Shown one piece after another: positions 8,373 through 39,432 of a stretch of 64,000 nt of DNA (its first letter is position 1; every line of letters begins with the position of its first letter). The notes below the pieces were generated by a model. It ran no database searches, was not told the DNA's origin, and saw nothing but the letters and a program-made list of their open reading frames with translations. The stretch covers positions 62,001-126,000 of the forward strand of contig NZ_JXJW01000003.1 of NCBI RefSeq assembly GCF_002441695.1. The letters run 5' to 3'. The position numbers and the translations under genes are program-made. Source of the DNA: Pseudolactococcus piscium (lineage in GTDB: Bacteria; Bacillota; Bacilli; Lactobacillales; Streptococcaceae).

Positions 8373-9308
8373 ATGTCTAAAATTTTAGTTTTTGGTCACC
8401 AAAATCCGGATACAGATGCGATTGGGTCATCTTATGCCTTTGCAGAGCTTTCGCGCTTGCGTGGCCTTGAGACGGCTGAAGTCGTTGCGCTTGGTGATGT
8501 AAATGAAGAAACTGCCTTTGCACTAGATTACTTTGGCGTACCAGCACCACGTGTTGTTACTTCTGCCAAAGCAGAAGGTGCTGATCAGGTGATTTTGACA
8601 GACCATAATGAATTCCAACAGTCTATCTCAGATATTCGCGATGTGACGATTTTAGGTGTTGTAGACCATCACCGTGTCGCGAACTTTGAAACGCAAGCAC
8701 CATTATTTATGATTTTGGAACCAGTTGGTTCGGCATCATCTATCGTTTATCGTCAGTTCAAAGCTGATGGTCGTGAGATTCCTAAAGCAACAGCGGGTTT
8801 GCTCTTGTCTGGCTTGATTTCAGATACTTTACTTCTAAAATCACCAACAACGCATGAAACAGATGTAAAAGTTGCTGAGGACTTGGCTAAAATCGCAGGT
8901 GTAGACCTTGAAACCTATGGCCTTGCCCTACTCAAAGCAGGGACTAATTTGGCGACAAAACCAGCCGACGTACTGATTGACATCGATGCCAAGACTTTTG
9001 AATTAAATGGTCACAGTGTGCGTGTTGCACAGGTCAATACCGTTGATATTCCTGAAGTGCTAGCGCGTCAGTCTGAAATTGAAACAGCAATTAAAACAGC
9101 AATGCAAGCTAATGCCTACTCCGATTTTGTCTTTATGATTACAGACATCGTCAATTCAAACTCTGAAATTTTAGCCCTAGGCCAAAATAGTGACAAGGTT
9201 GAAGCTGCGTTTAACTTTGAGCTAAAAGATAATCATGCTTTCTTGGCTGGTGCAGTCTCACGTAAAAAACAAGTAGTCCCACAATTAACCGAGTCATTTA
9301 GCAAATAA
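8373..9308 (+). CDS. ppaC: Manganese-dependent inorganic pyrophosphatase (family II)
   Basis: 311-aa cytoplasmic DHH-family enzyme that hydrolyses pyrophosphate to phosphate and so drives biosynthetic reactions. Conserved metal ligands are visible in [13 protein letters not shown] (residues 8-20), LTDHNE (about 75), VVDHHR (about 96-101) and the C-terminal [10 protein letters not shown] substrate-binding motif. Length matches the family (about 310). SD GAGGAAG precedes ATG by 8 bases. It is monocistronic, with a terminator following. Confidence 0.97.
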
Positions 9309-10262: not shown

Positions 10263-11684
10263 ATGACGCAAGCAAATTTTGGTGTAGTTGGTATGGCAGT
10301 GATGGGTCGTAATCTGGCGCTTAACATTGAATCACGTGGTTATAAGGTCGCAATTTTTAATCGGTCTAGAGAAAAAACGGAAGATGTGATTGCTTCGCAT
10401 CCGGATAAACAGTTTGTGCCGAGTTATGATATTACTTCATTTGTGAATTCTATTGAAAAACCGCGTCGGATCATGTTGATGGTTCAAGCAGGTCCGGGGA
10501 CAGATGCAACCATTCAAAATCTTTTACCACATTTGGATAAAGGCGATATTTTGATCGATGGTGGGAATACATTCTATAAAGATACTGAGCGTCGTAATGC
10601 TGAACTAGCTGATTCAGGTATTAATTTTATTGGTACAGGTGTTTCTGGTGGTGAAAAAGGTGCGCTAGAAGGACCTTCTATCATGCCTGGCGGTCAAAAA
10701 GAAGCCTACGAACTTGTTAAAGATGTTTTAGAAGAAATTTCGGCTAAAGCACCAGAAGATGGCAAGCCTTGTGTGACTTATATCGGCCCTGCTGGCGCCG
10801 GTCACTATGTCAAAATGGTGCATAATGGCATCGAGTATGGCGATATGCAATTAATTGCAGAGTCATATGATCTGATGCAACGCTTACTTGGTCTTAATGC
10901 ATCTGATATGCAAGCTGTTTTTGCGGAGTGGAATAAGGGCGAGCTTGATAGCTATCTGATTGAAATTACAACAGATATTTTGACGCATCAAGATGATCAA
11001 GGTCAAGAAGGCCCAGTTGTTGATTATATCTTAGATGCTGCTGGAAATAAAGGGACTGGTAAATGGACAAGCCAATCAGCGCTTGATTCAGGTGTCCCAT
11101 TACCTTTGATTACAGAGTCAGTATTTGCCCGTTATATTTCGACATACAAAGAAGAGCGTGTCGCGGCAAGTAAAGTTTTGAAAGCACCTGACTTTAAGTT
11201 TGAAGGTGACAAAGCTGAGTTGATTGAAAAAATTCGTCAAGCGCTTTACTTCTCTAAAATCATGTCTTATGCCCAAGGGTTTGCCCAATTACGTGTTGCA
11301 TCTAAGGATAACGATTGGGACTTACCTTTTGGTGAAATTGCTGCTATCTGGCGTGCTGGATGTATCATCCGTGCACGTTTCCTACAAAAAATTACAGATG
11401 CTTATGGTCGCGATGAAGATCTAGCAAATCTTTTGCTGGATGAATACTTCATCGATATCACAGCAAAATATCAGCATGCTGTTCGTGAGGTTGTAGCCAT
11501 TGCTGTTCAAGCAGGCGTGCCGGTTCCGACATTCTCAAGTGCTATCGCCTACTTTGATAGTTACCGTTCAGAGAATTTACCTGCAAATCTAATTCAGGCA
11601 CAACGGGATTACTTTGGTGCGCATACCTACGAACGTAAAGATAAACCTGGTATCTTCCACTACTCTTGGTATGATGAGAAATAA
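10263..11684 (+). CDS. gnd: 6-phosphogluconate dehydrogenase, decarboxylating
   Basis: 473-aa enzyme of the oxidative pentose phosphate pathway: 6-phosphogluconate + NADP+ to ribulose 5-phosphate + CO2 + NADPH. The N-terminal dinucleotide fold shows [15 protein letters not shown] with the NADP-preferring NRS following (about residue 34). Substrate motifs [11 protein letters not shown] (about 126-136) and [13 protein letters not shown] (about 180-192) include the catalytic Lys and Glu. The C-terminal end matches full-length enzymes. It lies just upstream of covR but has its own promoter. Confidence 0.97.
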
Positions 11685-33228: not shown

Positions 33229-33579
33229 GGGGTCGTTCTGGATTCGACAGGTGTTGTCGCGTATGAGCTGCGATTAGTGAGACGTCACTATAAACCGTCG
33301 CAGAAAAATATAACTGCTAAAAATACACAAACTTACGCTTTAGCTGCCTAAACCACAGCCTGCGTGCCTGACTTTCGTTCGCCTATGACGACTTGATGGC
33401 CTAATTTAGTAGGATACGATTTGATGGTGTCTTGACATCAAAGAAGAGATTAAGAGAATCGCAAGCTGACTTTGTTCGAGGATTTGTCTCGTTAGCTTGT
33501 TAAATTTAGACAGTCCCTATGATTGTAGACGCTGATATAGCAAGGCATTTGGACAGGGGTTCGACTCCCCTCGGCTCCA
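33229..33579 (+). ncRNA. ssrA: tmRNA (ssrA)
   Basis: 351-base transfer-messenger RNA that rescues stalled ribosomes. The 5' end GGGGTCGTTCTGGATTCGAC and the 3' end GGTTCGACTCCCCTCGGCTC plus CA form the tRNA-like domain; CCA is not encoded after the discriminator A. The tag frame at 33316-33348 reads AKNTQTYALAA with TAA at 33349, very close to known lactococcal and streptococcal tags. The 3' end is the integration site of the prophage remnant that follows. Confidence 0.98.
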
Positions 33580-33638
33580 TATAATATTATCTATAACTTC
33601 TTATAAGTTGCTAAAAGCCCATTGTTTAGGGCTTTTTT
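33560..33638 (+). repeat. Left attachment-like repeat (ssrA 3' end)
   Basis: The ssrA T-arm through TATCTATAACTTCTTATAAG and TTGCTAAAAGCCC to the terminator is repeated, with changes, at 39365-39432. This marks the left edge of the inserted element. Confidence 0.8.
33613..33638 (+). terminator. Terminator of ssrA
   Basis: AAAAGCCC pairs with GGGCTTTT across ATTGTTTA, followed by T. It lies 34 bases after mature tmRNA and inside the attachment repeat. Confidence 0.85.
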
Positions 33639-33714: not shown

Positions 33715-33829
33715 TTAAAAATTCACGTATTTAGAAAATTTTTCACCAATATCATCGATAGCCTTTTGAGTGATATGTGTATAGACGTTCATGGTTGTCT
33801 GCAAATCTGAGTGACCTATCCTTATGCCA
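33715..33829 (-). pseudogene. int: Tyrosine integrase C-terminal stub (first)
   Basis: The minus strand encodes only the last about 38 residues of a phage integrase: RIGHSDLQTTMNVYTHIT then KAIDDIGEKFSKYVNF and a stop. The motif has the conserved GHS and the catalytic Tyr (VYTH). The rest of the gene is gone; the frame runs straight into the end of the immA-like gene, which marks a deletion junction near 33822-33830. Confidence 0.85.
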
Positions 33830-34409
33830 CACCCAACAACTTAGAGAATTCTTTCTTGGCTAGATCATAGAGATCATAATCAAGATGGTATGAATCAAGG
33901 AAGCTATAGAGGTTAATTGATTCCAATTCATTACAACTACTAATATAGTCAAGTACATATTTGTGCAACTGGCTTTTTTCTATATCTACTGATAGATCAT
34001 CTTCATAAATTTCAGTTATTGCCTCAAGCATGTCGTGATACTCATTACTGATAATTGTATAAGCCAATTCAAATGGACTTTCTGTTAAATCAGCAAAGAA
34101 ACTGAAATAGCTATAATTACCACCATTTTGTTCAAACACTTGCCATAGCATTAGTATTGCTTCACGATTAGCACGGATCTCGTGAACACTCAGTGCATCA
34201 TAGTCATTAGTCCTATGGCAATCTTTATTGATGATATGGCTTAACTCATGCGCCAGCTTAAATGGCGTAATAGTCGTCGGGTTATATATCAGAACTTTCT
34301 TATTGATATTGACCACAGCAGCTAGTGGAAATAAATTGTTAGCAACGACATCAAACCCTTGTTTTTTAATTTCACTGATGAGGAAATATATAAGATCCTG
34401 TTTATCCAT
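33822..34409 (-). CDS. ImmA/IrrE-type metallopeptidase-like protein
   Basis: 195-aa protein with the zinc-protease motif HELSH (about residues 53-57) in the PFKLAHELSHIIN context. ImmA proteins cleave the phage-type repressor encoded beside them, to trigger induction. The gene follows the repressor by 14 bases on the minus strand. Its last residues (LLGVA) run into the integrase stub, so the natural C-terminus may have been altered by the deletion. Confidence 0.82.
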   Translation of the reverse strand: MDKQDLIYFLISEIKKQGFDVVANNLFPLAAVVNINKKVLIYNPTTITPFKLAHELSHIINKDCHRTNDYDALSVHEIRANREAILMLWQVFEQNGGNYSYFSFFADLTESPFELAYTIISNEYHDMLEAITEIYEDDLSVDIEKSQLHKYVLDYISSCNELESINLYSFLDSYHLDYDLYDLAKKEFSKLLGVA

Positions 34410-34423
34410 ATATTTTTACCTCA

Positions 34424-34768
34424 TCAGTCTTCTAAACGTTTGCCAAGTATCAACTTCATGGCAGTCTTAACTTCATCGGTAAGAGGTTTACCATCAAATG
34501 ACACCCACTCATCCCAGTTTATCTTGCTTTCATCTACTAGATCCGCGAGGTCAATTGGTTCTCTTGTGGTAGAAAGTGCTTCACGTCCGAGAAGATAGTC
34601 AACTGAGACATGAAAGTAGTCAGCAACTTTGGTTACGGCACTAGTTGAGGGATTCGATTTACTCCAACGTCTTATGGTACCATTAGCGATATCTAGCTTT
34701 TCCTCTAATTGCCGGATTGATATTTTTTGTGATGATGCGAGACCTTTAATTTTCTCGTACAAGTCCAT
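34424..34768 (-). CDS. Phage-type repressor, HTH Cro/CI family
   Basis: 114-aa protein. The N-terminal helix-turn-helix (residues 4-60) has ISIRQLEEKLDIANGTIRRW, followed by VADYFHVSVDYLLGRE, typical of XRE-family repressors. A short acidic C-terminal part has no RecA-type cleavage domain, which fits control by the neighbouring ImmA-like protease. ATG 34768 was chosen because GGAGAGG lies 9 bases upstream; the frame is open further upstream without family similarity. Confidence 0.87.
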   Translation of the reverse strand: MDLYEKIKGLASSQKISIRQLEEKLDIANGTIRRWSKSNPSTSAVTKVADYFHVSVDYLLGREALSTTREPIDLADLVDESKINWDEWVSFDGKPLTDEVKTAMKLILGKRLED

Positions 34769-34825
34769 GTTTATAAACCTCTCCGTAATATAAGAAAAAA
34801 GTGTATTAAAAACGTACAAATAAAC

Positions 34826-34854
34826 TTGACAAATGTGTACGGATATCATACAAT
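34826..34854 (+). promoter_or_regulatory. Early rightward promoter with operator
   Basis: TTGACA, 17 bases, TACAAT. Inverted half-sites CGTACA (about 34813) and TGTACG (about 34836) flank the -35 box and are likely repressor sites. The normal cro and early genes that it would drive are missing. Confidence 0.7.
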
Positions 34855-35086
34855 AGTTTTTGTAAGATAAGTAAGTAAAGCAGTATATAAATAGCCTATA
34901 AAAAGCCCTTATAACGCTCTGAGAGAATGTTTAATTCGCTTTTGTTAGGTGTTTTAACTATGTCTACATTGTAGGATATTTATGCATTTGTGTCAAGTGC
35001 TTATATACAAAAAAACTAATTTCTCTTATATTAAATCTTAATTTAATGATATAGCTATCTTGTAGGTATGATAATGACTACCTAAT
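34855..35086 (+). other. AT-rich stretch after early promoter
   Basis: No reading frame of note and no recognised element. Probably scarred remains of the deleted early region. Confidence 0.4.
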
Positions 35087-35191
35087 ATGAGAGGTCAGGA
35101 GGTTGCCGACATACTGGTTCAAAATTATCCTCGCTTAGTTAAGTTGAAAAAAGCCCATAATGTTAGAAGGGAAGAGGAATGGAAGGATTAG
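35087..35191 (+). pseudogene. Short phage gene fragment before arpU-like gene
   Basis: A 34-codon frame, MRGQEVADILVQNYPRLVKL then a basic/acidic end and stop, overlaps the arpU-like start. Composition looks coding, resembling the C-terminus of small proteins found before late regulators in phages. It has no ribosome site and an upstream in-frame stop, so it is probably the tail of a deleted gene. Confidence 0.4.
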
Positions 35192-35580
35192 AACGATTAT
35201 ATAGTCAGGAACAAGTACGTGAAGCAATTGTTGAAAGTCGTAAACTCTTAAAAAACTATCGACAATTGAAGGCACTCAAAAAAATAAAATTTCCCAACCT
35301 CAAATCTCCTACTTTTTCAGATATACCAAGAGGAGGCAAAGGGACAATTGATTCACATTTAAGTGATTATATAGAGGTGATCAGTCAGCTTGAACAGATA
35401 GAAAAAAGTGTTGCAAGATGTGAATTACTACAAAGTAGCATACTGCGAAAAAAATATTTAGATGAAACAACTTATCCTCAATGGAAATTAGCTGAAATGT
35501 CAGGCTATTCTATTAGCAGGTATAGTGACTATCTAAATAGTTCTTTACTACAGTTTGCATCTGCATATGGTCTGATATGA
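35179..35580 (+). CDS. ArpU/RinA-like phage late transcription regulator
   Basis: 133-aa protein resembling DUF1492/ArpU-type regulators that switch on phage late genes. It has a Lys-rich N-terminal helical region, then SQLEQIEKSVARCELLQSSI and a C-terminal sigma-region-4-like helix-turn-helix (TTYPQWKLAEMSGYSISRYSD, given by its ends, about residues 95-115). Its stop is one base before the first copy of a 109-bp repeat that also occurs before the second lysin. Identification is by pattern, not search. Confidence 0.68.
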   Translation: MEGLERLYSQEQVREAIVESRKLLKNYRQLKALKKIKFPNLKSPTFSDIPRGGKGTIDSHLSDYIEVISQLEQIEKSVARCELLQSSILRKKYLDETTYPQWKLAEMSGYSISRYSDYLNSSLLQFASAYGLI

Positions 35581-35581
35581 C

Positions 35582-35690
35582 TATCGGATAAACGTCGGAT
35601 AAATAAACGGAAATAGTTGATAAAATGACATTATAAGGCTTGTGGATAGATAGGCAAATATAGATTGAAAAGTATCGAACACAAGTCTTA
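35582..35690 (+). repeat. Lysin upstream repeat, copy 1
   Basis: 109-bp element starting TATCGGATAAACGTCGGATA and ending ACAAGTCTTA. It contains two tandem CGGATAAA boxes and TTGAAA, 18 bases, TATGAT (35665-35694), a possible promoter. Copy 2 is at 36633-36741 with roughly 85 percent identity by eye. Confidence 0.85.
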
Positions 35691-35745
35691 TGATTAAAGA
35701 ACTATATAGTGCGCACTGTATGTTTTATTTTAAGAAAGGGGACAA

Positions 35746-36507
35746 ATGGTTTCAGGATTAACAAGAAACAAATCAAAAGACTTAATGAATAAGTATCTAT
35801 CAACTTCACTACCTTCTGATCCAGGGGTTTGGTATGGTACTTTGGGAGGTTCACCAGCAGCACATTCAAACTGTACATTGTTTAGTCAATGGTTTTTGAA
35901 AAACTATACAAGAGACGATGTACAATTAGCGATGCCTAGTGGTAATGGGTTTGAAATGGTTGATAAATTTATAGGTGCTAATGGCGGTAAATTTTCAAAA
36001 AGCGGTACGCCGCAAGCATTCTCTTTATTTTCAATCTCACCTAATAATGGTAATTACGGCACTTATGGTGCTGGACATACTGGAATTGTATTAGGTATTG
36101 ATGGCGATACAGTAATTACAGGAGAAGCTAACTATGGGGCTCCTTATGGAGGTCTTGATGCATCATATCCTAATAATGGGACGGTTGTTAGGACACATGC
36201 ATTGAGTACGTTTAATAGTTCAACAGGAGTTACGTTCGTCAACTTAACTAATTATTTAGTTGATGAGCTTACAAATACAAATACAAATACAGATAAGAAA
36301 AAAGGAGAAAAGAAAATGACACTTTCATTTGTTTACAAAGGAACTGGATACTCAGCAGTAGATGGCACTATGATTGCTTTTTCAGACGGACAAGTTTGGG
36401 AATGGATAAAACAAGGTGCAAGAAAAAATGATACTCATGTTGAATTAGGTACACTATCTGATTCTCAATATAAACTATTTACAAAAGCTTACAATTTCGA
36501 ACTTTAA
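35746..36507 (+). CDS. Lysin 1: CHAP-like amidase/peptidase with C-terminal wall-binding domain
   Basis: 253-aa phage-type peptidoglycan hydrolase without signal peptide. Residues 1-175 look like a CHAP domain with Cys43 in HSNCTLF and His111 in GAGHTGIVLG. A Thr/Asn repeat linker (TNTNTNT) is followed by a 63-residue C-terminal domain starting at Met191 that is nearly the same in lysin 2. An internal SD and ATG sit exactly at that boundary. GAAAGGGGAC precedes the start ATG by 4-5 bases. Release from the cell would need a holin or lysis. Confidence 0.8.
   Translation: MVSGLTRNKSKDLMNKYLSTSLPSDPGVWYGTLGGSPAAHSNCTLFSQWFLKNYTRDDVQLAMPSGNGFEMVDKFIGANGGKFSKSGTPQAFSLFSISPNNGNYGTYGAGHTGIVLGIDGDTVITGEANYGAPYGGLDASYPNNGTVVRTHALSTFNSSTGVTFVNLTNYLVDELTNTNTNTDKKKGEKKMTLSFVYKGTGYSAVDGTMIAFSDGQVWEWIKQGARKNDTHVELGTLSDSQYKLFTKAYNFEL
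36301..36318 (+). promoter_or_regulatory. Internal translation start in lysin 1
   Basis: AAAGGAG, then 8 bases, then ATG at 36316, in frame with the lysin. It would give a separate 63-aa binding-domain protein. The same arrangement occurs in lysin 2. Confidence 0.75.
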
Positions 36508-36533
36508 ATATTTACTGATAAGCTTTTCTATAG

Positions 36534-36613
36534 TTGACAATAAAAACGTGTTATATTAACATTATTGAAATAAAGACAAAGGCAGCTTCTGAGCGATCAG
36601 GCGTTGTCTTTTT
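36534..36613 (+). ncRNA. Promoter-hairpin element, copy 1
   Basis: TTGACA, 17 bases, TAACAT, then about 12 bases later a terminator-like hairpin: AGACAA/TTGTCT outer stem, CTGA-GCGA-TCAG inner stem with a GNRA loop, and five T. A transcript of about 45 bases is predicted. Copy 2 is at 37581-37654. Confidence 0.6.
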
Positions 36614-36632
36614 GATATTACTTTTATGTGGT

Positions 36633-36741
36633 TATCGGATAAACGTCGGATAAATAGATGAAAATAGCTGATAAAATTACAGTATAAGGCTTGCGGATAT
36701 ATAGGCAGATATAGATTGAAAATTATCAAATACAAGTCTTA
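36633..36741 (+). repeat. Lysin upstream repeat, copy 2
   Basis: Same 109-bp element as 35582-35690, with both CGGATAAA boxes kept; the possible -10 is TACAAG here. It lies 25 bases before the lysin 2 start. Confidence 0.85.
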
Positions 36742-36765
36742 CAAGAAAATATATGAGGAGGTGCT

Positions 36766-37437
36766 ATGTTGGCACAACAACAAGTAGCAGAACAAATTTG
36801 GAATTACCTTACATCTCGTGGCTGGACCAAACAGTCTGTTTCAGCTCTGTTAGGCAATATGCAGAGCGAAAGCGGGATCATTGCAGACCGTTGGGAAAGC
36901 GACCGGATTGGTAACATGAGTGGCGGCTATGGTCTTGTTCAATGGACCCCAGCAACCAAGTATATCAATTGGGCACAAAGTAATGGTTTAGTCTATCAAG
37001 ATGTTATTAGCCAATGCAAGAGATTAGAATGGGAAGTCGCAAATAGTCAACAATTTTACAATCCAAACATGACTTTTGCACAGTTTACTAAGAGTACACA
37101 ATCTCCCGAAGTATTAGCGGATATTTTCATACGATATTATGAACGTCCGTTTAATCCTAATCAACCAGCAAGGGGAATTCAAGCACGTTATTGGCTTGAA
37201 TTGCTAAAAGGCAATACTAATGATAATCAAAAAGGAGAAAAGAAAATGACAATTATATTTAATTATAAAGGAACAGGATACTCTGCAATAGATGGCGTTA
37301 TGATCGCTTTTTCAGACCCTAAAGCTTGGGGTGCGATTACTGGCATTGCTACAAAGAATGGAACGGCTGTTGAATTAGGTACTCTAACTGATTCACAATA
37401 TAAACTATTTGTAAAAGCTTACAAATTCGAAGTTTAA
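36766..37437 (+). CDS. Lysin 2: phage lysozyme-like domain with the same wall-binding domain
   Basis: 223-aa hydrolase without signal peptide. Residues 1-145 resemble the phage tail lysozyme family (Phage_lysozyme2): IWNYLTSRGWTKQSVSALLG, then NMQSESG with a likely catalytic Glu, and GGYGLVQWTP. The last 63 residues (from Met161) match lysin 1 closely, including YKGTGYSA.DG, MIAFSD and DSQYKLF.KAY. GAGGAGG lies 4-6 bases before ATG. The two genes look like a tandem duplication followed by a swap of the catalytic domain. Confidence 0.82.
   Translation: MLAQQQVAEQIWNYLTSRGWTKQSVSALLGNMQSESGIIADRWESDRIGNMSGGYGLVQWTPATKYINWAQSNGLVYQDVISQCKRLEWEVANSQQFYNPNMTFAQFTKSTQSPEVLADIFIRYYERPFNPNQPARGIQARYWLELLKGNTNDNQKGEKKMTIIFNYKGTGYSAIDGVMIAFSDPKAWGAITGIATKNGTAVELGTLTDSQYKLFVKAYKFEV
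37231..37248 (+). promoter_or_regulatory. Internal translation start in lysin 2
   Basis: AAAGGAG, 8 bases, ATG at 37246, in frame and identical in layout to the site in lysin 1. It would also give a 63-aa product. Confidence 0.75.
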
Positions 37438-37787
37438 ATATTTACTGATATGCTTTTATAATGTTGATAATAATGGTTTAGTTTTAGGATAACGCACTTA
37501 ATGATTTCTGTTCGATTCAGGCTTTGTTAGTTATAATTAATCAAGTCATGGCGAGCCGTGGGTCTTGTTTTGGAGCAAAACTGACAATGAAAACGTGTTA
37601 TATTATTATGACATAAAGAAAAGGCAGCTTCTGAGCGATCGGGTTTTGTTTTTTATATCATTTTGATGCGATCTTATGATGAATAGGAGAATAATATGTG
37701 GTATTGCTGACAGCAAAGAATGACTAATTAATACTACAAATGGGTATGCTAATACTCAATACAAACATGCGTTTAAAAAGGAGAAAT
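37438..37787 (+). other. Spacer after lysin 2 with scar of a third unit
   Basis: 350 bases with no complete gene. It begins like the region after lysin 1, then has about 90 unrelated bases, then promoter-hairpin copy 2. At 37684-37710 an AGGAG and ATG start a frame of only four codons (MWYC, stop), possibly the scar of a deleted third lysin. Confidence 0.5.
37581..37654 (+). ncRNA. Promoter-hairpin element, copy 2
   Basis: CTGACA, 17 bases, TATTAT, then a hairpin with AAGAAAA/TTTTGTT outer stem and CTGA-GCGA-TCGG inner stem, followed by T. Compared with copy 1 the inner stem keeps pairing (A-U, G-C, U-G, C-G) although its sequence changed. Confidence 0.6.
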
Positions 37788-38117
37788 ATGGAATATAAAC
37801 TAATTGGCATTTCTTGCCTGATTTTAATTATTTTGGGCTTGACGTGGCTTAAGGAAGGCGAGAAAATGAACCCACCGCTAAAGAAAAGGGTCGTAATTGA
37901 TAGTGTCACAATCGGTATTTTTTGGGCCGTGTTTGAATTTCTGGATAAGTCAGGATCAACGACATACAAAAATGAAATAGTATTTGTGATTAATACCTCG
38001 CTATTTTTCTTTTTTGCCAGAATGATTCAGTTGATTTGCCAAGTAAATCCGATGATTCAAGAGCTAATACAATACCTAAAATCAAAAGGTGTTGATATGG
38101 AGGATAAAGAAAAATGA
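37788..38117 (+). CDS. Small holin-like membrane protein
   Basis: 109-aa protein with three predicted membrane helices (about residues 4-20, 36-52 and 64-85) and a charged C-terminal tail (KSKGVDMEDKEK). Position just before a lysozyme, four-base overlap (ATGA) and size fit a phage holin, but no specific holin family was recognised. ATG 37788 was chosen because AAAGGAG precedes it; an upstream in-frame start adds 16 residues without a ribosome site. Confidence 0.68.
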   Translation: MEYKLIGISCLILIILGLTWLKEGEKMNPPLKKRVVIDSVTIGIFWAVFEFLDKSGSTTYKNEIVFVINTSLFFFFARMIQLICQVNPMIQELIQYLKSKGVDMEDKEK

Positions 38118-39217
38118 GGAAATTAAAAAAATCAGTAGCAGTCTTAGCGGTCGCGCTAGGGCTTTTTGCTAGCATATCACCAGCGTTTGCAGCGGTGGGT
38201 GACCAAGGTGTAGACTGGGCAGTTTACCAAGGTGGACAAGGCCAATTTGGCTATGCACATGATAAGTTTTCCATCTCGCAGATTGGTGGCTATAATGGCT
38301 CAGGTATCTACTGGCAATCAACGTATGCATCACAGGTGCAGTCATCAATTGCACAAGGAAAACGTGCACACACATACATCTGGTGGCAAAATGTAGCAGA
38401 CTACAGTACAGCCAAGTATGTACTCGATACGATGCTTGCTCAAGTTCAGACGCCTAAAGGCTCTATTGTAGCTTTAGATGCTGAGTCAGGCTACCAAAAC
38501 ACAGATGTCACATTATGGTCTCTACAGTACATAAAAGACCGTGGCTACACACCTCTTTTGTATGGCTATAAGAGCTATCTTGTAGATAACTTCGACCTAA
38601 CTAGAATATCAAACCAGTTTGGCTTGTGGATGGCCCAATATCCAGATTACAATGTCACGCCTATTCCGAACTACACCTATTTTCCATCGTGGGACAATAT
38701 TCAAGTGTTCCAATTCACGTCAACCTATTTGGCTGGAGGTCTAGATGGTAATATCGACTTATCAGGTGTGACGGATAATGGCTATATCGGAGGTAATCCC
38801 GAAAAGCCCAAAACAGAAACGCCAGCAATTGAAGCAGGTAAAGAAGCTGACCAAGTAAAGGGCAACGCTAAAGAAGTGGGCATGACGGTCAAAGTCAACT
38901 TTAGCTCTAGTGTCTATGCGACTGGCGAGACTATTCCTGATTGGGTTAAGGGGACTTCTTACAAAATCATCGAGAAGTCAGGCGATAAGGTGCTGCTTGA
39001 CGGTATCATGAGCTGGATCAGCGTATATGATGTTGAGACATTAGATGCATCTACTAGTGCACCAGTTGTGAATACTGGTCAAACTCACGTTGTACAATAC
39101 GGCGAAAACTTAAGCGGGATTGCAGCACAATTTGGCACGACGGTAGAACGTCTTGTATCAGCGAATGGAATTACTAATCCTGACTTTATTCAAGTTGGTC
39201 AAGTGTTGAAATTTTGA
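38114..39217 (+). CDS. Lysin 3: secreted GH25 lysozyme with SH3-like and LysM domains
   Basis: 367-aa endolysin. A signal peptide at residues 1-26 (hydrophobic core then SPAFAA). GH25 muramidase domain at about 28-210, with the GVDW Asp and IVALDAESG acidic pair. A linker rich in Lys/Glu/Pro, an SH3-like region near 250-305, and one LysM at 325-367 (HVVQYGENLSGIAAQFGTTV). Exported lysins of this kind occur in phages of lactic acid bacteria and work with a membrane-depolarising holin. It overlaps the holin-like gene. Confidence 0.9.
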   Translation: MRKLKKSVAVLAVALGLFASISPAFAAVGDQGVDWAVYQGGQGQFGYAHDKFSISQIGGYNGSGIYWQSTYASQVQSSIAQGKRAHTYIWWQNVADYSTAKYVLDTMLAQVQTPKGSIVALDAESGYQNTDVTLWSLQYIKDRGYTPLLYGYKSYLVDNFDLTRISNQFGLWMAQYPDYNVTPIPNYTYFPSWDNIQVFQFTSTYLAGGLDGNIDLSGVTDNGYIGGNPEKPKTETPAIEAGKEADQVKGNAKEVGMTVKVNFSSSVYATGETIPDWVKGTSYKIIEKSGDKVLLDGIMSWISVYDVETLDASTSAPVVNTGQTHVVQYGENLSGIAAQFGTTVERLVSANGITNPDFIQVGQVLKF

Positions 39218-39364: not shown

Positions 39365-39432
39365 TCTCGACTCCACTAATCCTATCTATAACGTCTTATA
39401 AGTTGCTAAAATCTCAATATTTAGGGCTTTTT
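39365..39432 (+). repeat. Right attachment-like repeat (degenerate ssrA end)
   Basis: CTCGACTCC, then CTATCTATAACGTCTTATAAG, GTTGCTAAAA and TTTAGGGCTTTTT match the left repeat with substitutions and a small gap. The tRNA-like end is no longer functional. The bases 39218-39364 before it hold no gene. Confidence 0.78.

Follow-up and report, generated by a model that had tools for sequence, protein, structure and literature searches.

Paired modular lysins in a truncated Pseudolactococcus piscium prophage as probable late-promoter-driven bacteriolysins

Two adjacent lysin genes in a truncated prophage of Pseudolactococcus piscium share an upstream repeat, a C-terminal cell-wall-binding domain (CBD) and a downstream hairpin block, but their catalytic domains are unrelated. 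The genes lie in a stretch of 64,000 nucleotides (the window; G000:C23:62001-126000) from a 2.4-Mb genome; here, G-numbers denote genomes (G000 being this one), C-numbers its contigs and L-numbers locus stretches. We assign a probability of roughly 0.7 to the view that the pair are modular bacteriolysins driven by phage-type late promoters, and that they belong to a class which lactococcal temperate phages can carry as cargo at the start of the late operon. Judged by their kinship with the lysins of LAC460, the two window enzymes are most likely bacteriolysins that are released and find their target through the CBD; their probable use to the bacterium is as weapons against close relatives.

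Results

Shared flanks and unrelated catalytic domains

The initial annotation had described a 109-bp repeat before each lysin gene (35582 and 36633), a nearly identical C-terminal domain of 63 amino acids (aa) and the same promoter-hairpin block behind each gene (36534 and 37581). When 35582-36613 is aligned with 36633-37654, the shared segments align strongly. The upstream repeat extends over 116 nucleotides (nt; 35575-35690 and 36626-36741) at 87% identity, and the CBD coding regions (36292-36543 and 37222-37473) match in two ungapped blocks at 83-84% DNA identity. At the protein level the 63-aa domains are 68% identical, so that the sharing stands and the near-identity does not. The downstream blocks (36535-36612 and 37582-37654) are 80% and 89% identical, both with a promoter-like match and with a hairpin that looks terminator-like by folding. 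The catalytic parts, previously called CHAP-like and lysozyme-like, fall into PF05257 and PF18013 and reach 24% identity in a forced global alignment; they are unrelated. Both reading frames are open, as had been stated, and by eye the N-termini run into the catalytic domains. A four-codon scar at 37696 had been taken for a possible remnant of a third unit; 37582-37698 aligns with 36535-36660 at 76% identity with 9 gaps, which is compatible with the start of a third leader.

Searches with the parts of the two proteins returned little, and the absences reported for phages, plasmids and IMG/VR hold for those searches alone. Among 50,697 phage records, neither the CHAP domain (at E 1e-5) nor either of the CBDs had a match, whereas the lysozyme domain of lysin 2 had 56, all below 60% identity and the best of phi29 type. 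Neither CBD was found in IMG/VR in the search for related loci, and neither has a Pfam family. Whole lysin 1 had no match in plasmids and one in IMG/VR, a fused endolysin adjoining a holin-like gene. Among solved structures, CBD2 gave one match at E 0.69 and whole lysin 1 none.

Promoter and leader of the lysin genes

The upstream repeat contains two to three direct repeats of period 11 (TCGGATAAACG type), an extended -10 of the TGATARAAT type, which has a C in one of eight leaders, and an 11-bp hairpin. Across the eight leaders, 94% of the hairpin's cells are paired, a value reached by 2 of 500 shuffles; the covariation score is also reached by 2/500, and the number of pairs changed on both sides, two, by 333/500. 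A degenerate pattern of repeats and -10, allowing up to three mismatches, hits four sites in the own genome, all before lysins, and none in the reversed control. As the pattern was built from these same leaders, the news lies in the absence of further sites; a DNA search with the leader returned the same four. They precede the two window lysins, an M23 peptidase lysin on C6 and a GH24 lysozyme lysin on C74. The CBDs of the C6 and C74 lysins are unlike those of the window and 90-91% identical to each other, and the ArpU gene before their promoters is present as interrupted tails only.

In the window, the ArpU gene lies directly upstream of the promoter with its direct repeats. A G008 contig shows a related ArpU (58%) followed by the same promoter layout, a tRNA-Pro and packaging genes (layout and gene names by eye). 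Because of this layout and the four-site set, the upstream repeat is most likely the promoter and leader of the late type of such phages, and the one control signal that had been postulated for both lysins is read here as a phage late promoter. The leader occurs in 4 of the 12 genomes of the genus. Against the 50,697 phage records, the window ArpU gave one weak match. G006 encodes an ArpU that is 75% identical, with no lysin beside it among the open reading frames (ORFs) listed.

Two observations concern the surroundings of such promoters. On a prophage contig, a genuine tRNA-Pro (L132:7832-7906(-)) lies directly behind an ArpU-type late promoter and before the packaging genes. Behind the C6 lysin are five ORFs of unknown function (L006:3418-6817(-)), and a similar small ORF follows the G006 ArpU region; PADLOC found no defence genes near the C6 cassette (7 proteins scanned, 5 from there).

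An internal start at the binding-domain border

Inside each window lysin gene, the shared domain starts with AGGAG, an 8-nt spacer and ATG. The homologous unit begins 33-36 nt before this internal ATG and hence contains the ribosome-binding site. In 24 lysins from the window and related loci, pairing of the anti-Shine-Dalgarno sequence with the 20 nt before the CBD Met amounts to -8.8 to -13.6 kcal/mol (-9.3 in lysin 1). The mean at the 105 remaining in-frame Met codons is -3.6 kcal/mol, and energies like those of the CBD starts occur at 0.2-4.9% of all codon positions. All 24 CBD starts have a Shine-Dalgarno (SD) core; in 500 synonymous shuffles the average count was 13.6 and the highest 20. 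For these first 24 lysins the CBD borders were placed manually at the Met of the linker; homology borders, synonymous shuffles and orthologous swaps are less circular. In six CBD-sharing tandem pairs, DNA homology runs from 13-58 nt before the internal ATG to within 13 nt of the gene end. For the IMG/VR lysins the start was picked by requiring an SD core, so that a count of 18/18 denotes presence, not excess. Internal initiation at these sites would give each gene two products, the second being a free CBD.

Module exchange and lysin pairs in relatives

The earlier proposal of a tandem duplication with exchange of the catalytic part finds support in relatives, where three orthologous loci, compared by blastn, each have one module replaced. 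At the hupB locus (own C74 versus G001), the flanks are 92-94% identical on both sides and the CBD is conserved, but a GH24 domain stands against an unassigned catalytic domain. At a holin-side locus (G007 versus G008), identity is 88% from just before the CBD onward, with GH24 against Phage_lysozyme2 upstream; here the right flank alone was compared, since the G008 contig ends at this locus. Within a CHAP gene of G007 and G008, homology stops at the internal ATG, the CBDs differ beyond it, and homology resumes in the next lysin gene.

Among eleven adjacent lysin pairs, seven have a common CBD but different catalytic domains. CBD identity in these sharing pairs is, in aa, 68% in the window, 84% and 100% in G029, 58% in G016, 98% in G035 and 69% in G008; for G059 units 1/2 it is 96.7% in DNA. 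The ratio of nonsynonymous to synonymous substitution (dN/dS) within CBD-sharing pairs is 0-0.20 in five. Between species, catalytic domains have a dN/dS of 0.07-0.30, some with dS >1.5, which indicates purifying selection. As judged from domain names or similarity, a glycan cutter is combined with a peptide cutter in six of the seven CBD-sharing pairs, G008 not fitting; one G016 partner is unassigned, and the loci were found by these very domains. Judged by these loci, the window pair is one case of a recurrent pattern rather than a unique accident.

The modules themselves are patchily distributed: across the family, CHAP1 occurs in 5 of 295 genomes (one weakly) and Phage_lysozyme2 in 9, of which 5, the own genome included, are at at least 82% identity; within the genus, CBD1 occurs in 1/12 genomes and CBD2 in 5/12. 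The C6 M23 domain has 71-72% identity with M23 domains that lie within 880-aa frames in two sister genomes. Pfam gave no family for a second CHAP-like domain (G001, G007c) or a cysteine-peptidase-like domain (G007b) that were recognised by eye. Fused endolysins (L055/L136, L117) and tail proteins (L116, L118) were seen but not counted as members, and L061 was left out. In the tandem array of G059, the frame of the first unit (L058:7319-7870) is interrupted at the linker, with the CBD coding region behind the internal start remaining, and the third unit (GH24+M23; L058:9617-10746) is split.

A prophage slot behind the late activator

A search of IMG/VR with lysin 2 led to three prophage contigs (L133-L135), each with a lysozyme-type lysin between an Alt-like activator (PHROG 2198, E 4e-57 and 1e-42 in the two tested) and terS, terL and portal genes. 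The stretch from activator to lysin contains a tRNA-like RNA, in which an acceptor-like stem of 8 bp stands on a T-arm of 5 bp whose loop reads UUCGAUU; this RNA is also found before the C6 lysin, a G047 lysin and three G059 lysins. With seven of the eight copies aligned (all but the third G059 leader copy), 98.3% of cells are paired, and pairing and covariation score are each reached by 0/500 shuffles; four pairs are changed on both sides, a number that 102/500 shuffles reach. Rfam at gathering score returned nothing for L133-L135; in L057 and L058, tRNA and tmRNA genes alone pass, and the three L058 copies match tRNA-Sec weakly (24 bits, cut-off 47).

Twenty IMG/VR stretches matched the pattern of this RNA, and two further RNA patterns had no matches there. 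A complete lysin ORF follows the RNA at 33-87 nt in 18/20 stretches (the frame is split in L139 and cut in L146), an Alt-like activator lies upstream in 17/20 (the remaining three hold at most 370 nt there), and a terS match lies downstream in 12/20. The set is partly redundant: L153, L144 and L146 lie on the contigs of L133, L134 and L135, and L142 and L145 are near-identical. The catalytic parts of the slot lysins are GH24 with or without M23, M23, or Phage_lysozyme2, tested with Pfam in four lysins and otherwise assigned by motif or similarity, and they are joined to seven CBD clusters, one of which occurs with M23, Phage_lysozyme2 and GH24 types. Matches to the activator/promoter region of L135 occur in 36 phage records (28 Lactococcus, 8 'Bacteriophage'), but none extends over 80% of the query, and the 15 that were listed reach no further than position 155 of 301; in phage 4268 the slot holds an HNH endonuclease. 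The slot is thus variable, with lysins as one kind of cargo.

Lying between Alt and terS, this lysin class is not part of the holin-endolysin cassette. In the window a putative holin does lie next to the pair, but the cassette of that holin includes a GH25 endolysin, and the structural genes between are missing. Nor are the lysins located in, or fused to, tail or structural genes: they stand alone before terS or in loci without structural genes. An accident of a gutted prophage was rejected as the whole story, since the adjacency of activator and lysin recurs in L024, L058, L133-L135 and 17/20 IMG/VR stretches.

The tRNA-like RNA would stand at the head of late phage transcripts before the lysins; processing by RNase P/Z and protection of the 5' end are guesses at its role. 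T-arm-like hairpins (GGGTTCGACTCCC type) also occur in the 3' regions of the G059 lysin units (L058:8069-8142, 9239-9305 and 10784-10857(+)).

The surrounding element

The lysins belong to a 5.8-kb element that is bounded by an 18-bp direct repeat, TCTTATAAGTTGCTAAAA, at 33599 and 39394 and contains, in this order, an integrase-end-like stretch, an ImmA-like protease, CI, an ArpU-family activator, lysin 1, lysin 2, a putative holin and a GH25-LysM endolysin (Table 1). Judged by eye from its motif, the 35-aa stretch at 33718..33822, which has no Pfam family, is presumably the C-terminus of a tyrosine integrase. Among the best listed phage matches, CI shows 69-75% identity and the GH25 endolysin 57-63%, ul36 included; by these matches both are ordinary phage proteins. 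We read the element as a truncated prophage at ssrA, from which the integrase and the structural genes have been lost and in which CI, ImmA, ArpU, both lysins, the putative holin and the GH25 endolysin have been kept.

Around the CI start (34826-34996) lie two opposed strong sigma-70-like promoters with 11/12 matches each, one reading left into CI and the other right towards arpU, an arrangement that resembles a lysogeny switch. A search for CI operators gave short inverted repeats only. Lysin clusters downstream of ssrA occur in three genera (tmRNA at 33229-33579 of the window, L056:7818-8167 and L058:3095-3451), two of the three in a yigZ-comFA neighbourhood (gene names by eye).

In the blocks downstream of the lysins (36534-36612 and 37581-37654), a promoter-like site reads straight into the hairpin. 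These sites, TTGACA-17-TAACAT at 36534 and CTGACA-17-TATTAT at 37581, match in 10/12 positions each, and the element contains 36 such sites against 24.9 +/- 5.1 in shuffles. The first hairpin folds with -16.6 kcal/mol (z -3.1) and the second with z -0.8; a terminator scan listed neither. The block may act as a terminator or give rise to a separate, very short RNA.

Table 1. Positions of the features discussed (window coordinates unless an L-number is given)
Feature	Position	Strand	Basis
tmRNA gene ssrA, probable integration target	33229..33579	+	ARAGORN
att-like repeat, left copy, 18 bp, TCTTATAAGTTGCTAAAA	33599..33616	.	exact repeat of 39394-39411
Putative tyrosine integrase C-terminus, 35-aa remnant	33718..33822	-	by eye
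ImmA-like metalloprotease	33822..34409	-	PHROG 87, E 5e-22
CI-type repressor, longest ORF; start probably near 34771 (by eye)	34424..34849	-	PF06543 Lac_bphage_repr, E 9e-28
ArpU-family late transcription activator	35179..35580	+	PHROG 248, E 9e-19; TIGR01637, 41.5 bits
Late promoter 1 (most likely): two 11-bp direct repeats (TCGGATAAACG type) and extended -10 TGATAAAAT	35584..35626	+	genome pattern match, alignment
Leader hairpin 1, 11-bp stem 35634-35644 / 35680-35690	35634..35690	+	-17.9 kcal/mol, z -5.6
Lysin 1: CHAP catalytic domain (35746-36315) and CBD	35746..36507	+	PF05257, E 2.7e-7
Predicted internal cistron of lysin 1, AGGAG 36303-36307, ATG 36316, free 63-aa CBD	36303..36507	+	SD duplex energy, shuffles
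Terminator-like hairpin after lysin 1, behind promoter-like site at 36534	36574..36612	+	z -3.1 and U run
Late promoter 2 (most likely)	36635..36677	+	genome pattern match
Leader hairpin 2	36685..36741	+	z -1.9, 10/200 shuffles as good; family alignment
Lysin 2: Phage_lysozyme2 (phi29 gp13-like) and CBD	36766..37437	+	PF18013, E 8e-36; PDB 3csq, E 3e-46
Predicted internal cistron of lysin 2, AGGAG 37233-37237, ATG 37246, free 63-aa CBD	37233..37437	+	SD duplex energy, shuffles
Second hairpin-block copy, behind promoter-like site at 37581	37616..37655	+	89% copy; weak fold, z -0.8
Putative holin	37788..38117	+	PHROG 1379 (without a function there), E 1e-39; called a holin from position and by eye
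Ordinary phage endolysin, GH25 and LysM	38114..39217	+	profile matches
att-like repeat, right copy	39394..39411	.	exact repeat of 33599-33616
tRNA-like RNA copies	L006:7661-7758, L057:7408-7505	-	acceptor-like stem stacked on T-arm, no D-arm
tRNA-like RNA copies	L058:7209/8393/9463, L133-L135 near 5850	+	acceptor-like stem stacked on T-arm, no D-arm

Discussion

Lysin bacteriocins, internal starts and late activators are each already known, and the window pair can be placed beside all three; what follows about published systems refers to the accessible parts of the cited papers. LAC460 has three lysins, LysL (385 aa, lysozyme+M23), LysP (243 aa, M23) and LysT (233 aa, a tail-type lysozyme), all of which are found in the supernatant without predicted signal peptides, and of which LysL and LysP kill lactococci (PMC10377672). 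The C-terminus of LysL binds sensitive strains and not the producer (PMC11219366), and LysP and LysT combine different catalytic domains with the same last 78 aa (PMC10377672, PMC11219366). Lengths and domains like those of the 385-, 243- and 233-aa lysins recur in L138, L154/L155 and L133/L134 (compared by length and domains), and the M23 (L154/L155) and lysozyme (L133/L134) forms share one CBD. Like the window lysins, LysL, LysP and LysT are prophage-borne and join a catalytic part to a C-terminal domain without known homology; the window pair differs in its CBDs, its CHAP enzyme, its tandem arrangement under two copies of one promoter and its internal start signal. The main text of PMC10377672 contains none of the words 'promoter', 'repressor' and 'internal', and the accessible parts of the two papers do not mention the slot, a late promoter, an internal start or swaps at such a start.

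An in-frame internal start has been verified for the phage endolysins LysP7951, LysIME-EF1, Lys170 and CTP1L (PMC9430671). These enzymes and the window lysins both have one catalytic and one binding domain with an internal start between them and a free binding domain, the latter being predicted here. The two-polypeptide endolysins, however, are phage lysis enzymes, whereas in the window the internal start is at the same time the boundary at which modules are exchanged, and the pair share their binding domain. TP901-1 Alt and phi13 Ltr act on direct repeats in the same position (PMC13123087); in the Alt, Ltr and ArpU systems, as in the window, a small activator lies directly upstream of a late promoter with direct repeats. 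Unlike in those systems, the promoter of the window is also found at unlinked lysin genes and thus forms a scattered set. Such a set has a functional analogy in the pyocin regulon, although the window enzymes would act on the wall from outside. S-type pyocins under PrtR/PrtN combine a phage-type repressor and activator with scattered modular bacteriocin genes, one promoter element and lysis-mediated release. Immunity genes were not identified for the window lysins, and no search was aimed at them.

How might such a system work? The anatomy of the pair, the promoter set, the internal start signals, the swaps and the prophage slot can be read from the sequence, and we infer from there the course of induction, the dependence on ArpU, the two products and their oligomers, the release and the bactericidal role. 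The class can occupy a slot between an Alt/ArpU-type late activator and terS, outside the lysis cassette, and each gene follows one plan, in which late promoter and leader precede an exchangeable catalytic module, then a ribosome-binding site with ATG and an exchangeable wall-binding module, and finally the hairpin block. Recombination at the internal ribosome-binding site would swap catalytic or binding modules, and tandem duplication followed by a swap would create pairs that cut different bonds while binding the same kind of target. Upon DNA damage, CI would be lifted with the assistance of ImmA, and ArpU would be made and activate the late promoters of all four lysin genes, two in the window and one each on C6 and C74. 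Each gene would then yield a full-length enzyme and a free binding domain, possibly assembling together, and lysis of some cells by holin and GH25 would release the lysins, so that related strains with CBD-recognised walls are killed.

A further-reaching set of proposals, possible but doubtful when taken jointly, makes the shared CBD the very point of the pair. Because each gene also makes a free binding domain, both enzymes might enter common CBD oligomers, giving a wall-bound particle that cuts glycan and peptide; selection for co-assembly might homogenise the CBDs within a pair while the catalytic domains swap at the internal ribosome-binding site; and the phage-type activator might switch on lysin genes across the chromosome, as a Gram-positive counterpart of the pyocin regulon, with orphan cassettes perhaps answering infecting phages.

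Could the lysins instead be ordinary endolysins left over in a decaying prophage, duplicated and recombined, with no function beyond host lysis in the cycle of an extinct phage? The truncated prophage at ssrA with its att-like repeats, and the putative holin and GH25 endolysin next door, speak for this origin. We nevertheless consider it unlikely, because a complete endolysin already stands beside the holin, the same class sits at ltr-terS in prophages, away from the lysis cassette, pairs recur where no other phage genes were recognised nearby by eye (L054, L056, L059, L115), and the catalytic domains are under purifying selection between species.

Conceivably, the enzymes could also act within the virion and aid DNA entry, as has been suggested for LysT in PMC10377672. 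The catalytic domain of lysin 2 is indeed closest to phi29 gp13 (55-59% in the 15 best listed phages; PDB 3csq), and one of the 880-aa frames that match the C6 M23 domain at 71-72% is by eye a tail-type protein (L118). Yet the genes stand alone at the start of the late operon, their CBDs have an internal start, several loci lack structural genes, and in published studies LysP and LysL kill as free enzymes, which makes a role in the virion highly improbable. A third scenario, in which the Alt or ArpU of an infecting phage fires the chromosomal cassettes and the cell or its infected neighbours are lysed altruistically, would account for orphan cassettes that keep a late promoter without a resident activator, as in G001, and for the interrupted ArpU tails at C6 and C74. 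The intact G000 ArpU could, however, drive all four lysin genes, a holin was not recognised next to the orphan cassettes, and inspection by eye shows no secretion signal, so that we regard this scenario as quite unlikely.

Several observations weigh against our preferred reading of the pair as released, late-promoter-driven bacteriolysins. The window ArpU scores 41.5 bits with TIGR01637, below the cut-off of 43.1, and G001, a single-contig genome, has promoter and lysin but no ArpU match at 1e-5. The CBD is not shared in four of the eleven adjacent pairs (G047, 23%; G007, 20% and 17%; G059 units 2/3, 13%). The window CBD pair has a dN/dS of 0.63, against 0-0.20 in five other CBD pairs, and thus does not bear out the suggestion of the initial annotation that selection keeps this copy; between genera, the G007a and G035a CBDs have 0.49. 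Some other in-frame Met codons are as strong as the internal start (G016a, -15.6; G029b1, -12.7; C74, -9.6), and 12 other internal ATGs have an SD core. Among the eight IMG/VR stretches without a terS match, four show other genes (L138, L151, L152, L155) and three are short or have nothing recognised; in L139, holin and GH25 lie directly behind the lysin, as in the window. AlphaFold models of the CBDs are poor (pLDDT 52 and 40), and none of the LAC460 lysins, as described in the accessible text, has a CHAP domain.

In the literature as far as it was accessible, we found no description of a fixed slot, of exchange at an internal ribosome-binding site, of common-CBD tandem pairs under one promoter or of a scattered promoter set, which is no proof of their absence from print. 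If the bacteriolysin reading is correct, it places the few known lactococcal lysin-like bacteriocins in a class with a defined promoter, prophage slot and exchange point. It would explain why unrelated catalytic domains have a common target specificity and why LysT, according to the accessible account, lies about 20 kb from the holin in LAC460. The pairs would also offer a blueprint from nature for building lysins out of modules that meet at an internal ribosome-binding site, and an example on which the takeover of phage late regulation by scattered bacteriocin genes can be tested.

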